A DNA stretch of 64,000 nt. Source: Asaia bogorensis NBRC 16594. Its GTDB lineage: Bacteria; Pseudomonadota; Alphaproteobacteria; Acetobacterales; Acetobacteraceae. Each line of letters begins with the position of its first letter. The first letter of the stretch is position 1. A program made the position numbers and the translations under genes. The stretch is from the NCBI RefSeq assembly GCF_001547995.1, contig NZ_AP014690.1, forward strand, positions 2,105,001 through 2,169,000. Direction: 5' to 3'. Of the stretch, positions 36,948-40,879 are shown piece after piece. The notes below the pieces were generated by a model that saw nothing but the letters and a program-made list of their open reading frames with translations, had not been told where the DNA came from and did no database searches.

Positions 36948-38189
36948 ATGTCTGAAGCCACCCTCTCATTCACCGAGCGTCTCGACAGACTCGGCGAAGT
37001 TGCCGTTCGTATCGGGCTGAATCTCCAGCCCGGCCAGGAACTGGTGATTTCAGCGCCGCTTGAGGCCGTCTCGCTGGTGCGCCGCATCACCGAGCACGCC
37101 TATCGCGCCGGCGCGAGCCTCGTCACCACGCAATATGCCGATGATGAGGCAACGCTGGCACGCTACCGCTTTGCTTCCGATGAGAGCCTCGACAAGAGCG
37201 CCCAGTGGATGGCGGATGGCATTGCACGGGCCTATCGGGAAGGTGCCGCGCGTCTGGCCATTACCGGCAGTAACCCGACCCTGCTCAACGGGCAGGATCC
37301 GGCCCGTGTGTCGCGCGCAAGCCGCGCTGCATCGCGTGCCAGCCGTGAGGCCATGGAGATCATCACGCGCTTTGACACCAACTGGACGATTGTTGCCTAT
37401 GCAACAGCCAGCTGGGCGGCGCAGGTCTTTCCCGATCTGCCGACACAGGAAGCGCAGGATCGACTCTGGAACGCCATATTTGCCTCGTCCCGACTGGATG
37501 CTGCTGATCCTGTCATCGCCTGGAAACAGCATAATGCAACCCTGCATGCCAAGGCGGCGATGCTGAATGAGCGCCGCTTTCATGCCCTGCACTTCACCGG
37601 CCCCGGCACGGATCTGACTGTGGGTCTTGCAGATGGTCATGCCTGGGCGGGCGGTGCCGAGCGCACGACAAACGGGATCGATTGCAACCCGAATATCCCG
37701 ACCGAAGAGGTCTTTACGACTCCTCACAGCCATCGGGTGAGCGGGCACGTTTCAAGCACCAAGCCGCTCTTCCATCAGGGCACGCTGATCGACGAAATCC
37801 GCGTGACCTTTGCTGAGGGGCGTATCATCGAGGCCCACGCTGGCAAGGGAGAAGATGCGCTGCGCCGGATTCTGGAAACAGATGAAGGCGCCGCCCGCCT
37901 TGGCGAAGTGGCTCTGGTGCCCCATGCTTCGCCCATCTCGGACACCGGCATCCTGTTCCGCAACACGCTGTTCGATGAAAATGCCTCGAGCCATATTGCG
38001 CTTGGTCAGGCCTACACCAAATGCCTGTTCGACACCGAAGGGGCCTCGGCTGAAATGCTCGCTGCCCGCGGTGCCAATACAAGCATGATCCATATCGACT
38101 GGATGATCGGCTCGGACAAGATCGACCTCGATGGTCTGGCTGACGACGGCACAGCGACACCGCTGATGCGCAAGGGAGCGTGGGTATGA
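36948..38189 (+). CDS. M29 family aminopeptidase
   Basis: Metal-dependent aminopeptidase of the AmpS/PepS/thermophilic type, 413 residues, cytoplasmic. The two-metal site of the family can be followed: the Glu pair in IPTEEVFTTPHSHRVSG, GEVALVPHASPIS, LFDENASSHIALGQAY and the His-x-Asp in MIHIDWMIGSDKIDLDGL. It releases N-terminal residues in peptide turnover. GGAG seven bases upstream fixes 36948; an in-frame codon at 36927 is not needed. The stop overlaps the start of a secreted protein gene (ATGA). Confidence 0.92.
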   Translation: MSEATLSFTERLDRLGEVAVRIGLNLQPGQELVISAPLEAVSLVRRITEHAYRAGASLVTTQYADDEATLARYRFASDESLDKSAQWMADGIARAYREGAARLAITGSNPTLLNGQDPARVSRASRAASRASREAMEIITRFDTNWTIVAYATASWAAQVFPDLPTQEAQDRLWNAIFASSRLDAADPVIAWKQHNATLHAKAAMLNERRFHALHFTGPGTDLTVGLADGHAWAGGAERTTNGIDCNPNIPTEEVFTTPHSHRVSGHVSSTKPLFHQGTLIDEIRVTFAEGRIIEAHAGKGEDALRRILETDEGAARLGEVALVPHASPISDTGILFRNTLFDENASSHIALGQAYTKCLFDTEGASAEMLAARGANTSMIHIDWMIGSDKIDLDGLADDGTATPLMRKGAWV

Positions 38190-38713
38190 TGAGAATGCAC
38201 CTGACAAAACTCGCTGCGCTAGGCTTTGCGCTTGGCGCCTCACCTTCTCTGGTAGCAACCAACGCCTTGGCGCAGAACGCGCCTGGTGGTGCGCAGAGCC
38301 AGCAGAGCATCCCGCCCGAAATGAGGCAGGATATCGAGGCAGGGCTGGGTTATCCCCTGCCTGCCGACTTCATGCCGCGTGCAGCCCAGACCGTGCAGGC
38401 GCTTCAGGCGGCCAATATCCGACCGCCCAACTCCACCCAGATATCGCTGCGGGCGACAATCGCCCAGATGCAATCCATCCCGGGTTTGCCTGCCATCCTG
38501 AGCGCACACGGCTTCACGCCAGAGACATTCGTGATGGGCATGACCGCCTTCGGGATGACAGTTGCTGCGACAAATGGTCAGCCTCTGCCCGCTGGTCTGC
38601 CTGCACCGAACCCGGCCAATATTGCCCTCTTTCACGCCCATCCGGATCAGGTGACTACACTGATGCAGGCTATGGGAACACCACCGGGGCAGATGCAGGG
38701 TCAGGATAACTGA
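38186..38713 (+). CDS. secreted protein of unknown function
   Basis: 175 residues with a signal peptide (1-29, cleavage after NALA). The mature part has a Gln-rich start, then a helical region (AAQTVQALQAANIRPP, ATIAQMQSIPGLPAILSAHGF) and a Pro/Met-rich end (MGTPPGQMQGQ). I do not recognise a family. Start chosen at 38186, seven bases after GGAG, giving an ATGA overlap with the aminopeptidase gene, so the two are coupled in translation although one product is exported and the other is not. Confidence 0.7.
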   Translation: MMRMHLTKLAALGFALGASPSLVATNALAQNAPGGAQSQQSIPPEMRQDIEAGLGYPLPADFMPRAAQTVQALQAANIRPPNSTQISLRATIAQMQSIPGLPAILSAHGFTPETFVMGMTAFGMTVAATNGQPLPAGLPAPNPANIALFHAHPDQVTTLMQAMGTPPGQMQGQDN

Positions 38714-38783
38714 ACCGGGCATCCTGAAGGTCATATCCGGGCCACGCCAGGTCCGGATATCCTTGAAGCAGAAAGTAGCAGAC

Positions 38784-39191
38784 ATGAAGGAATTTGCCCT
38801 CGACCCGGCAACCCTGCCCGAGGCCGATATCCTCGGCCTGGCGCAAACGGGACAGCTTTTACGGGCGGAGCGTCAGACACCTGAGAATGGTATTCCGGCG
38901 TTCATCTCCCGCGAAGACTGGGATCGTACGCGGGCGCGTTTTGGTGCGTGTGGCAGGGACAGCGGTGATCTTCTTACCGCCCTCGAGAAGGCCGTGCAGC
39001 GCCTTATGGGTCATGCCGCCGAAACCCTTGCAACGCGTGAAGCCGGTGTGGTCAGCGCCATCCTGAGCGCCCGCACCGACCTGTTCGACGATGGTGGACC
39101 AACCTATCTCTCTTTCCTCCGCGACGCCACCCACCCGGTTGCGTGCGTCATCATTGGCAGTCGCCCGTGGCTCACGACTGACGCGGCCTGA
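38784..39191 (+). CDS. conserved-looking hypothetical protein
   Basis: 135 residues, no signal peptide or membrane helix. It starts MKEFALDPATLPEADILGLAQ and ends near a hydrophobic strand HPVACVIIGSRPWL; the middle is amphipathic helix. No family recognised. It lies 70 bases after the secreted protein gene and could be in the same transcript. The ribosome site is weak. Confidence 0.55.
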   Translation: MKEFALDPATLPEADILGLAQTGQLLRAERQTPENGIPAFISREDWDRTRARFGACGRDSGDLLTALEKAVQRLMGHAAETLATREAGVVSAILSARTDLFDDGGPTYLSFLRDATHPVACVIIGSRPWLTTDAA

Positions 39192-39281: not shown

Positions 39282-39677
39282 TTATGCTTTGGGGGCATCG
39301 CTCAAAGCTTCAGCCTCTCCCTGCCCCGTCCCCTCAGTCGTGCTTCCTGTTTGCGAGCGTTTGATAGCGGCGCGCGCCTGTATGAATGCCTGATACGCCA
39401 CGGCAACATCAATGGCGACCTCGCGCTCCGCGAGTCTCGCCCGTTCAATCGACGCACGGGCTTCTGGAAGCCAGTTGACGAACCCTTCAACGGCGCTGTC
39501 CTCATCGTTGGAAGCCAGCACATTGCGCTCGGCACTGACGATTTCGGCCTCGGCATTACGCCTGGCGCGCCGTACGCCGGTCTCTCGTCGCAGGACCGCA
39601 GTCAGGGCCTGCGCCCGATCCATCATCTCATGCCATCTTTGCAGCCGGGTGCTCTTTCTGATTCGCACGGCACTCAC
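39282..39677 (-). CDS. small helical protein, possibly FliJ-like
   Basis: 131 residues, nearly all predicted alpha-helix with high Arg, Ala and Glu content: a basic start (VRIRKSTRLQRWHEMMDRAQ) and two long helices around residues 20-60 and 70-105. Length and helix pattern resemble flagellar FliJ or other export chaperones, but no sequence motif proves this, and no other flagellar gene is in the window. It is divergent from the CtrA gene with a 458-base shared upstream region. Confidence 0.5.
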   Translation of the reverse strand: MSAVRIRKSTRLQRWHEMMDRAQALTAVLRRETGVRRARRNAEAEIVSAERNVLASNDEDSAVEGFVNWLPEARASIERARLAEREVAIDVAVAYQAFIQARAAIKRSQTGSTTEGTGQGEAEALSDAPKA

Positions 39678-39893: not shown

Positions 39894-40066
39894 TTAACGG
39901 CCGTTAAATAATCTATATGTTAGTGTAATCAAAACTATAAAACACTCCGACAAACCTCAGATACAGCTTCGATTTACCCGAGGATTCGAAAGCCTGTTTC
40001 AGAGAAATTGTAAGATTAATCCGTTAAAGACTCGTTACCTACACCAAGAAATGTTTTGCCGTTAAA
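39894..40066 (+). promoter_or_regulatory. TTAA/GANTC-rich control region upstream of the CtrA gene
   Basis: The gap 39678-40135 is clearly richer in A/T than its surroundings. It holds a perfect 14-base palindrome TTAACGGCCGTTAA (39894-39907), three exact copies of CCGTTAAA (39901, 40021, 40059), and TTAA-N7-TTAC (40024-40038), close to the CtrA box TTAA-N7-TTAA. GANTC sites, the target of the CcrM methylase, are at 39983, 40029 and 40109. In Caulobacter such elements control ctrA; their function here is inferred. Confidence 0.5.
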
Positions 40067-40135: not shown

Positions 40136-40879
40136 ATGCGCCTCCTTCTTGTGGAAAGCGACCAAGCTACAGCTCAAGCGCTGATCAAAACACTCAAACA
40201 GGGCGGTATTACTGTTGATCATGCCCAGACCGGGCATGAAGCAATCGATATGCTGCGCCATTATGATTATGATCTTGCCCTTACAGAACTGACACTCGAA
40301 GATCTGGAAGGATATGAAGTCATCCGACGGGTCCGTAAAACCCAAATCCAGACCCCGATTATTGTCCTGAGCGGAATGACGCGCCCCCAGGCCAAGATAA
40401 AGGCACTTCATGCCGGAGCCGATGACTACATCACCAAGCCGTTCGATACTGACGAATTGCTGGCGCGACTTCAGGCTGTACTGCGCAGGTCAAGAGGGTT
40501 CAGCACAACGGTCATGACGGTAGGACCGCTTTCGCTCGACCTCAACGCAAAGAGTGCATCGGTCAATGGCAATCCTGTGCAGTTGACCGGCAAGGAATAC
40601 GCCATACTGGAGCTATTGGTGCTACGGCGTGGGAATGTTTTGACGAAGGACGCCTTCCTCAACCACCTTTATGGTGGCATCGACGAGCCTGAAATGAAGA
40701 TCATCGACGTGTTCATCTGCAAGCTACGGCGCAAATTGCAGCAATTTGGCGCGGGCCAGATGATTGGCACAGTCTGGGGTCGGGGTTACGTTCTGCGTGA
40801 CGAAAACAAGCCTGTCTCTGTGGTCCCGGTTACGGAGCCATCCCAGCATTCTCTTGGAGCGCTACAGCCCGCGCTCTGA
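40136..40879 (+). CDS. ctrA: CtrA-family response regulator with Glu at the phosphoacceptor site
   Basis: OmpR-type cell cycle/motility regulator, 247 residues. Residues 1-118 are the receiver domain, 125-230 the winged helix DNA-binding domain. The latter is close to Caulobacter CtrA as I recall it (LTGKEYAILELL, FLNHLYGGIDEPEMKIIDVF, ETVWGRGYVLR-like GTVWGRGYVLR). The receiver aligns with Caulobacter CtrA without gaps, yet the phosphorylated Asp51 is Glu (codon GAA, 40286-40288; LTELTLEDLEGYEV) and Asp8 of the acidic pocket is Ser, while S79 and K101 are kept. The tail ends in PAL, not the Ala-Ala of the ClpXP degron. Start at 40136 follows GGAG by nine bases. Its last 18 bases overlap the thiD 3' end. 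Confidence 0.88.
   Translation: MRLLLVESDQATAQALIKTLKQGGITVDHAQTGHEAIDMLRHYDYDLALTELTLEDLEGYEVIRRVRKTQIQTPIIVLSGMTRPQAKIKALHAGADDYITKPFDTDELLARLQAVLRRSRGFSTTVMTVGPLSLDLNAKSASVNGNPVQLTGKEYAILELLVLRRGNVLTKDAFLNHLYGGIDEPEMKIIDVFICKLRRKLQQFGAGQMIGTVWGRGYVLRDENKPVSVVPVTEPSQHSLGALQPAL

Follow-up and report, generated by a model that had tools for sequence, protein, structure and literature searches.

The sole CtrA orthologue that sequence comparison reveals in the genome of Asaia bogorensis NBRC 16594, encoded by the reading frame at 40136–40879, has a natural glutamate at the position of the phosphoacceptor aspartate (residue 51). We think it probable that this form of CtrA, a regulator of cell cycle and motility, works without phosphorylation, with Glu51 standing in for phospho-Asp. 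The gene lies in the window, the whole 64,000-nucleotide stretch of DNA that was analyzed (contig NZ_AP014690.1, positions 2,105,001–2,169,000), and its features are collected in Table 1.

Table 1. Features of ctrA and its upstream region, in positions of the window
Feature	Position	Strand	Basis or remark
Distal CtrA-like box (7 of 8 bases), 242 bp upstream of the ctrA start	39894..39908	+	Shared with G085; G149 and G008 have none listed
CtrA-like box TTAA-N7-TTAC, 7 of 8 bases, 112 bp upstream of the ctrA start	40024..40038	+	Same place in G085, G149 and G008
GACTC (GANTC) site overlapping the box at 112 bp	40029-40033		
ctrA orthologue, 247 aa, OmpR-type response regulator	40136..40879	+	Translation from ATG 40136, NCBIfam, Pfam
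Receiver domain, residues 1-118, putatively pseudo-phosphorylated (S8, E51, K101)	40136..40489	+	Ungapped alignment to 4qpj_C
Codon 8, Ser for the acidic-pocket Asp	40157..40159	+	Sequence
Codon 51 (GAA), Glu for the phosphoacceptor Asp	40286..40288	+	Sequence
Codon 101, conserved receiver Lys, kept	40436..40438	+	Translation
Trans_reg_C DNA-binding domain, residues 145-220	40568..40795	+	Pfam PF00486, 74.1 bits
Variable C-terminal tail, residues 223-247	40802..40876	+	Comparison with same-genus G085

Pfam recognized Response_reg and Trans_reg_C domains in the reading frame, and the top NCBIfam model was CtrA (NF045991) with 318 bits (runner-up model, 173 bits), a score below the curated cut-off of 350 for a model whose short name points to the Rhodobacterales. 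The best model, an ungapped receiver, an OmpR-type DNA-binding domain and a box at its own promoter are shared with canonical CtrA and, together with uniqueness in the genome, identify the protein as a CtrA orthologue. We aligned its receiver with a solved CtrA receiver (4qpj_C) and found no gap over residues 1–118. A preliminary description, made from the DNA letters alone, had claimed a gapless match to Caulobacter CtrA up to residue 101, and this held with 4qpj_C as the reference. The stretches ...IEDD... and ...LLDLNLPD... of 4qpj_C are ...VESD... and ...LTELTLED... in Asaia (E7-S8-D9, T50-E51 and K101). Since 4qpj_C has Asp at residues 8 and 51, the Ser and Glu found there in the Asaia protein are real departures from canonical CtrA, and both substitutions named in the preliminary description were thereby upheld. 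Lacking the Asp phosphoacceptor and the acidic pair, the protein does not have the makings of a phosphorylatable response regulator. Unlike canonical CtrA, it is without the phosphoacceptor, has an incomplete acidic pocket and comes from a genome in which ChpT and CckA were not found. The tail is the variable part of the product: 12 of its 25 positions are identical to G085, a genome of the same genus, as against 94 of 98 over residues 125–222.

The engineered CtrA(D51E) alleles have the same residue at the same position. That the engineered Caulobacter variant is active, as the preliminary description stated, stood in part: a D51E allele is called stable and active, and this allele also has a C-terminal change (PMC5189948). 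In R. capsulatus (Rhodobacter capsulatus), D51E is described as phosphomimetic (PMC6363796). The Asaia case differs from the engineered alleles in that the glutamate is natural in many genomes and is accompanied by changes at residues 8, 55 and 80 and by no detected relay. We infer from these comparisons that CtrA with Glu51 is active.

We surveyed residue 51 in 150 genomes of the family, 123 of which had a CtrA match at E ≤ 1e-60. The residue was Asp in 94, Glu in 26, Ala in two and unreadable in one, a truncated copy (G062). Both GAA and GAG encode the glutamate among these genomes, and two further members of the genus (G085 and G149) and a close neighbour (G008) have E7-S8-D9 and TELTLEDL exactly as in Asaia CtrA. 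Had Glu51 been a sequencing error or a mutation of this strain, it would be confined to this genome. It recurs in G085 and G149 and in 26 of the 123 family genomes, encoded by two codons, and is due to neither chance nor error; we ruled this explanation out and give it next to no credence. The preliminary description had taken glutamate to be the natural state and had named an error at this codon, or lack of conservation in relatives combined with a second, canonical CtrA, as what would speak against it; the survey bears out the natural state and gave no sign of an error or of lacking conservation.

Nine genomes had two CtrA matches at this threshold; the seven second matches that were read are excluded from the 123, and those of G059 and G007 lie outside the reading. 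Some of the second CtrA relatives in ChpT-bearing genomes have an altered receiver (L243 and L245–L248), with Gly51 in G016 and Thr101 in G051, and those of G067, G111 and G020 have Gln-Gly-His at residues 7–9 and keep D51. Among the 27 genomes below the threshold, 24 had matches at E ≤ 1e-30, many of them plainly other regulators; some of those read are relatives of CtrA that have drifted far and show R, S, E or A at residue 51. The CtrA of G086 was recovered as pieces only, cut at contig ends. A scan of genome contigs gave at least 80 loci, mostly from other phyla, and the three that were read among the matches listed (L045–L047) all have D51.

For the other part of that condition, a second, canonical CtrA, we searched the complete genome (one contig of 3,198,265 bases). 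The closest other matches are 35%–36% identical to CtrA, and by best NCBIfam model no second canonical CtrA was found among eight other OmpR-type regulators (L007 and L009 were left out). A separate CtrA-like OmpR regulator lies on the minus strand at G000:C1:2592352-2593155 (locus L264:7353-8156), with CtrA as its best NCBIfam model (150 bits) and no Pfam receiver match. Its neighbours are T3SS/flagellar ATPase, MotB, MotA, FlgD and FlgF-type genes. This regulator had matches at E ≤ 1e-45 in nine of the 70 genomes searched, its own included, and all nine have Gln at the would-be phosphoacceptor position; we are reminded of Rem and FtcR, which we take to be flagellar regulators that likewise lack this Asp.

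We then turned to the phosphorelay. The ChpT family (PF10090) was over cut-off in 90 of the 150 family genomes. We called ChpT in 85, namely the 94 genomes that match at E ≤ 0.001 minus nine in which the matching part falls within a long reading frame of a kinase (G149, G001, G009, G017, G027, G075, G099, G114 and G130). In this family-wide search the A. bogorensis genome had no PF10090 match. Of its 16 HisKA places, five were scanned against NCBIfam, and three of these are hybrid kinases that resemble CckA. Two scored higher with a generic kinase model than with the CckA model (469 versus 390 bits and 342 versus 311 bits), and the third was about level (294 bits for CckA, 283 for the generic model), compared with 476 and 489 bits for CckA versus 305 and 310 for the generic model in the CckA proteins of two relay-bearing relatives. 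The curated cut-off of the Brucella CckA model was tried as a caller and rejected, as none of the 150 family genomes passed it and neither did a Caulobacter control. We therefore replaced that model with a profile built from the CckA of four relatives, scoring only eight first-look candidates per genome (five for the Brucella model). With E ≤ 1e-100 as the threshold for a CckA call, 74 of the 150 genomes matched the profile and A. bogorensis did not. By these searches its genome has neither the ChpT nor the CckA of a CckA-ChpT-CtrA phosphorelay, which fits the earlier, conditional proposal that the regulator is not under the control of this relay. A divergent kinase or phosphotransfer protein could slip past the profiles, and this counts against the reading of CtrA as independent of phosphorylation; even if one did, Glu51 would not accept phosphate in the normal way.

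Relay calls and residue 51 go together across the family. Among the Glu51 genomes, 25 of 26 were without ChpT and all 26 without CckA, the lone genome with a ChpT match being G133; in the Asp51 genomes we called ChpT in 74 of 94 and CckA in 64 of 94. The association of Glu51 with ChpT absence (Fisher p = 1.6e-12) ignores kinship, so it is descriptive and no evidence of dependence. Some Glu51 genomes are incomplete (G146, 81%; G133, 88%), and absence is weaker there for that reason.

To place these changes we used a SecA tree of 68 genomes, made by a quick method and with no inferred root; G146 and G057 are off it, having no SecA match at E ≤ 1e-100. A. bogorensis falls in a group of 28 genomes (SH-aLRT 97), hereafter the window's clade, which by our reading are acetic acid bacteria. 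Neither ChpT nor CckA was called in any of the 28. Residue 51 is Glu in 22, Asp in four (G030, G046, G126 and G060) and Ala in two (G066 and G032). Branches drawn beside the clade are also without ChpT and CckA (G013, G040/G122, G086/G071/G056/G132 and G001), and relay loss and Glu51 broadly coincide on the tree. Exchange between Asp and Glu requires eight changes, five of them forced by well-supported branches, and the same-genus pair G060 (Asp) and G135 (Glu) indicates that the site still shifts between the two acids. A tree-aware test had no power, as the relay state differed in fewer than one of five independent pairs on average. The four clade genomes with Asp51 and no detected relay imply that Glu51 is common and not obligatory, and with the two Ala51 genomes they imply that Glu is not required.

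In G032 a frame shift separates the receiver and DNA-binding halves of ctrA (L301/L330, G032:C12:342000-345000); in G118, a neighbour from the same genus, the gene is uninterrupted and has E51. Owing to the frame shift, the Ala51 of G032 comes from a separate match, and this genome is missing from the column-51 count within the clade (26 of 27 genomes acidic). A side lineage without a detected relay (G068, G140, G023 and G096; L300, L303, L305 and L306) has CtrA relatives with Arg or Ser at residue 51, which is a further route of receiver decay.

We next asked which receiver positions eroded. Across 60 relay-bearing genomes, each with calls for ChpT, CckA and CtrA, conservation reached at least 95% in 35 columns of the receiver. 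The least retained of these in the window's clade were columns 8 (7%), 51 (15%), 80 (22%) and 55 (26%), followed by 103 (54%) and 101 (64%), all of which we take to lie in or around the receiver active site. The remaining 29 columns were retained in at least 67% of the clade (columns 20 and 5 in 67% and 74%), and columns 96, 97, 111, 114, 117 and 118 were among those retained in 100%; these six lie in what is presumably the dimer face of an OmpR-type receiver. Mean pairwise identity of the receiver is 0.521 in the clade versus 0.698 in the relay-bearing genomes, and that of residues 125–222, the DNA-binding part, is 0.715 versus 0.759, in line with the earlier claim of a well-preserved DNA-binding domain. 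On sequence, erosion is not confined to the active site, as the whole receiver has diverged. It has diverged most at active-site positions, and conservation persists in the DNA-binding domain and at the putative dimer face.

This pattern also bears on the explanation that the receiver is a relic: the relay is gone, residue 51 drifted neutrally (GAY to GAR is one base and a conservative exchange) and CtrA acts through its DNA-binding domain, as happens with the unphosphorylated protein in some alphaproteobacteria. The faster divergence of the receiver than of the DNA-binding domain speaks for such drift, as do A, R or S at residue 51 in other lineages without a detected relay and the Asp kept by four clade members. 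In a published model for R. capsulatus, CtrA activates gafA in its unphosphorylated form (PMC6363796). Against drift, an acid occupies residue 51 in 26 of the 28 clade genomes, whereas column 8, which is Asp in 58 of 59 relay-bearing relatives, is free to be S, N, P, D, G, Y or T (seven residues in 27 clade genomes). The fully retained columns of the putative dimer face argue the same way, as does the presence of Glu51 beyond the clade in four genomes (G081, G146, G148 and G133) and two drifted receivers (G040 and G122). By conservation within the clade, column 51 ranks only 37th of 118 receiver columns; this, like the erosion outside the active site, speaks against Glu51 as a substitute for phospho-Asp. 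We judge neutral drift to be unlikely, and the weaker explanation when set beside Glu51 as a substitute for phospho-Asp.

We propose that the CckA-ChpT relay would have been lost in the ancestry of the window's clade and that Asp8, Asp51, Pro55 and Gly80 would have been replaced after this loss, with Glu at residue 51 in most lineages. The receiver of Asaia CtrA would then no longer be a phosphorylation switch. Glu51, Lys/Arg101 (K in 18, R in nine and L in one of 28 clade genomes), Ser/Thr79 and the conserved putative dimer face may hold it in an active-like, dimerizing state, so that CtrA would bind TTAA-N7-TTAA-type sites constitutively. Control would probably pass to the amount of CtrA, through synthesis (autoregulation at its own promoter) or degradation. 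We are less confident in extending this to the clade as a whole: that its CtrA became hard-wired by relay loss and an Asp-to-Glu lock-on, with control by synthesis or decay, we put at a little short of an even chance. The Glu51 receivers outside the clade suggest that there were perhaps several independent lock-ons. Replacement of the receiver phosphoacceptor Asp by Glu has a precedent in the pseudo-response regulators of the plant clock; their output domains and kingdom differ, and the likeness is the Asp replacement, which other atypical receivers show as well.

The proposed binding sites were sought in the 300 bp upstream of ctrA and compared with 200 dinucleotide shuffles. Upstream regions of 27 clade genomes hold six perfect TTAA-N7-TTAA boxes versus a shuffle mean of 1.0, and 34 sites with at least seven of eight bases versus 13.8 (no shuffle out of 200 was as high in either case); near-copies among these genomes inflate the enrichment, and 10 of the 27 have no box of seven or eight bases. 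In some related pairs of genomes (G060/G135, G136/G061 and G025/G079) seven or eight arm bases are kept and the spacer differs. The 74 ChpT-bearing genomes have three perfect boxes versus 0.18 and 13 with at least seven of eight bases versus 4.8. Across the A. bogorensis genome as a whole, perfect boxes show no enrichment (eight sites versus 16 for a reversed control), and with so few sites we dropped the attempt to derive a CtrA regulon from them. Seven of the eight lie outside kept reading frames and one (L403) inside; one lies ∼150 bp upstream of a gene for a chemotaxis receptor (MCPsignal), after which comes cheA. Farther upstream of ctrA are three reading frames without a Pfam match at E 0.1 (39282-39677 on the minus strand, and 38763-39191 and 38180-38713 on the plus strand).

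Some other signal, such as a protein partner, a small molecule or a non-canonical kinase, might switch the pseudo-receiver by a route other than phospho-Asp51. Atypical receivers that use other inputs exist, and the retained receiver fold and many retained surface columns are what such an input would call for. One candidate is SciP, a partner of CtrA in Caulobacter; its family (PF06627) had no match in A. bogorensis and was over cut-off in one of 150 family genomes, which weighs against this idea. We consider it improbable as the main explanation, and it could hold together with phosphorylation-independent activity of CtrA.

Relay loss in this order is known in outline. Brilli et al. (2010; PMC2877005) report that some Rhodospirillales have a degenerate relay from which chpT is missing, and chpT, cckA and divL occur in only 27%–36% of the Rhodospirillales genomes surveyed by PMC8116508. 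The Asaia case resembles these degenerate relays in that relay members are missing, chpT among them. Brilli et al. count cckA among the genes that such organisms have, whereas the Asaia kinases score as generic hybrids. The main text of PMC2877005 does not mention D51, a phosphorylation site, a receiver domain or any word beginning with aspart- or glutam-, and the main text of PMC8116508 has no word containing 'aspart'. The available part of PMC12733265 mentions CtrA for Caulobacter only, CtrA is absent from the main text of PMC13214618, and the available part of PMC6378743 has nothing on Glu receivers. In the open-licence literature, at the level of titles and the starts of abstracts, we found no treatment of a natural D51E in CtrA, and the natural glutamate appears to be undescribed there.

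CtrA is a model for the timing of the bacterial cell cycle by a phosphorelay, and a natural lineage with a fixed charge in place of the switch would amount to a ready-made experiment on the contribution of phosphorylation. The finding is of interest for the repurposing of response regulators that have lost their kinase. For acetic acid bacteria, which are used in industry and occur as insect symbionts, it is also relevant to motility and surface traits.
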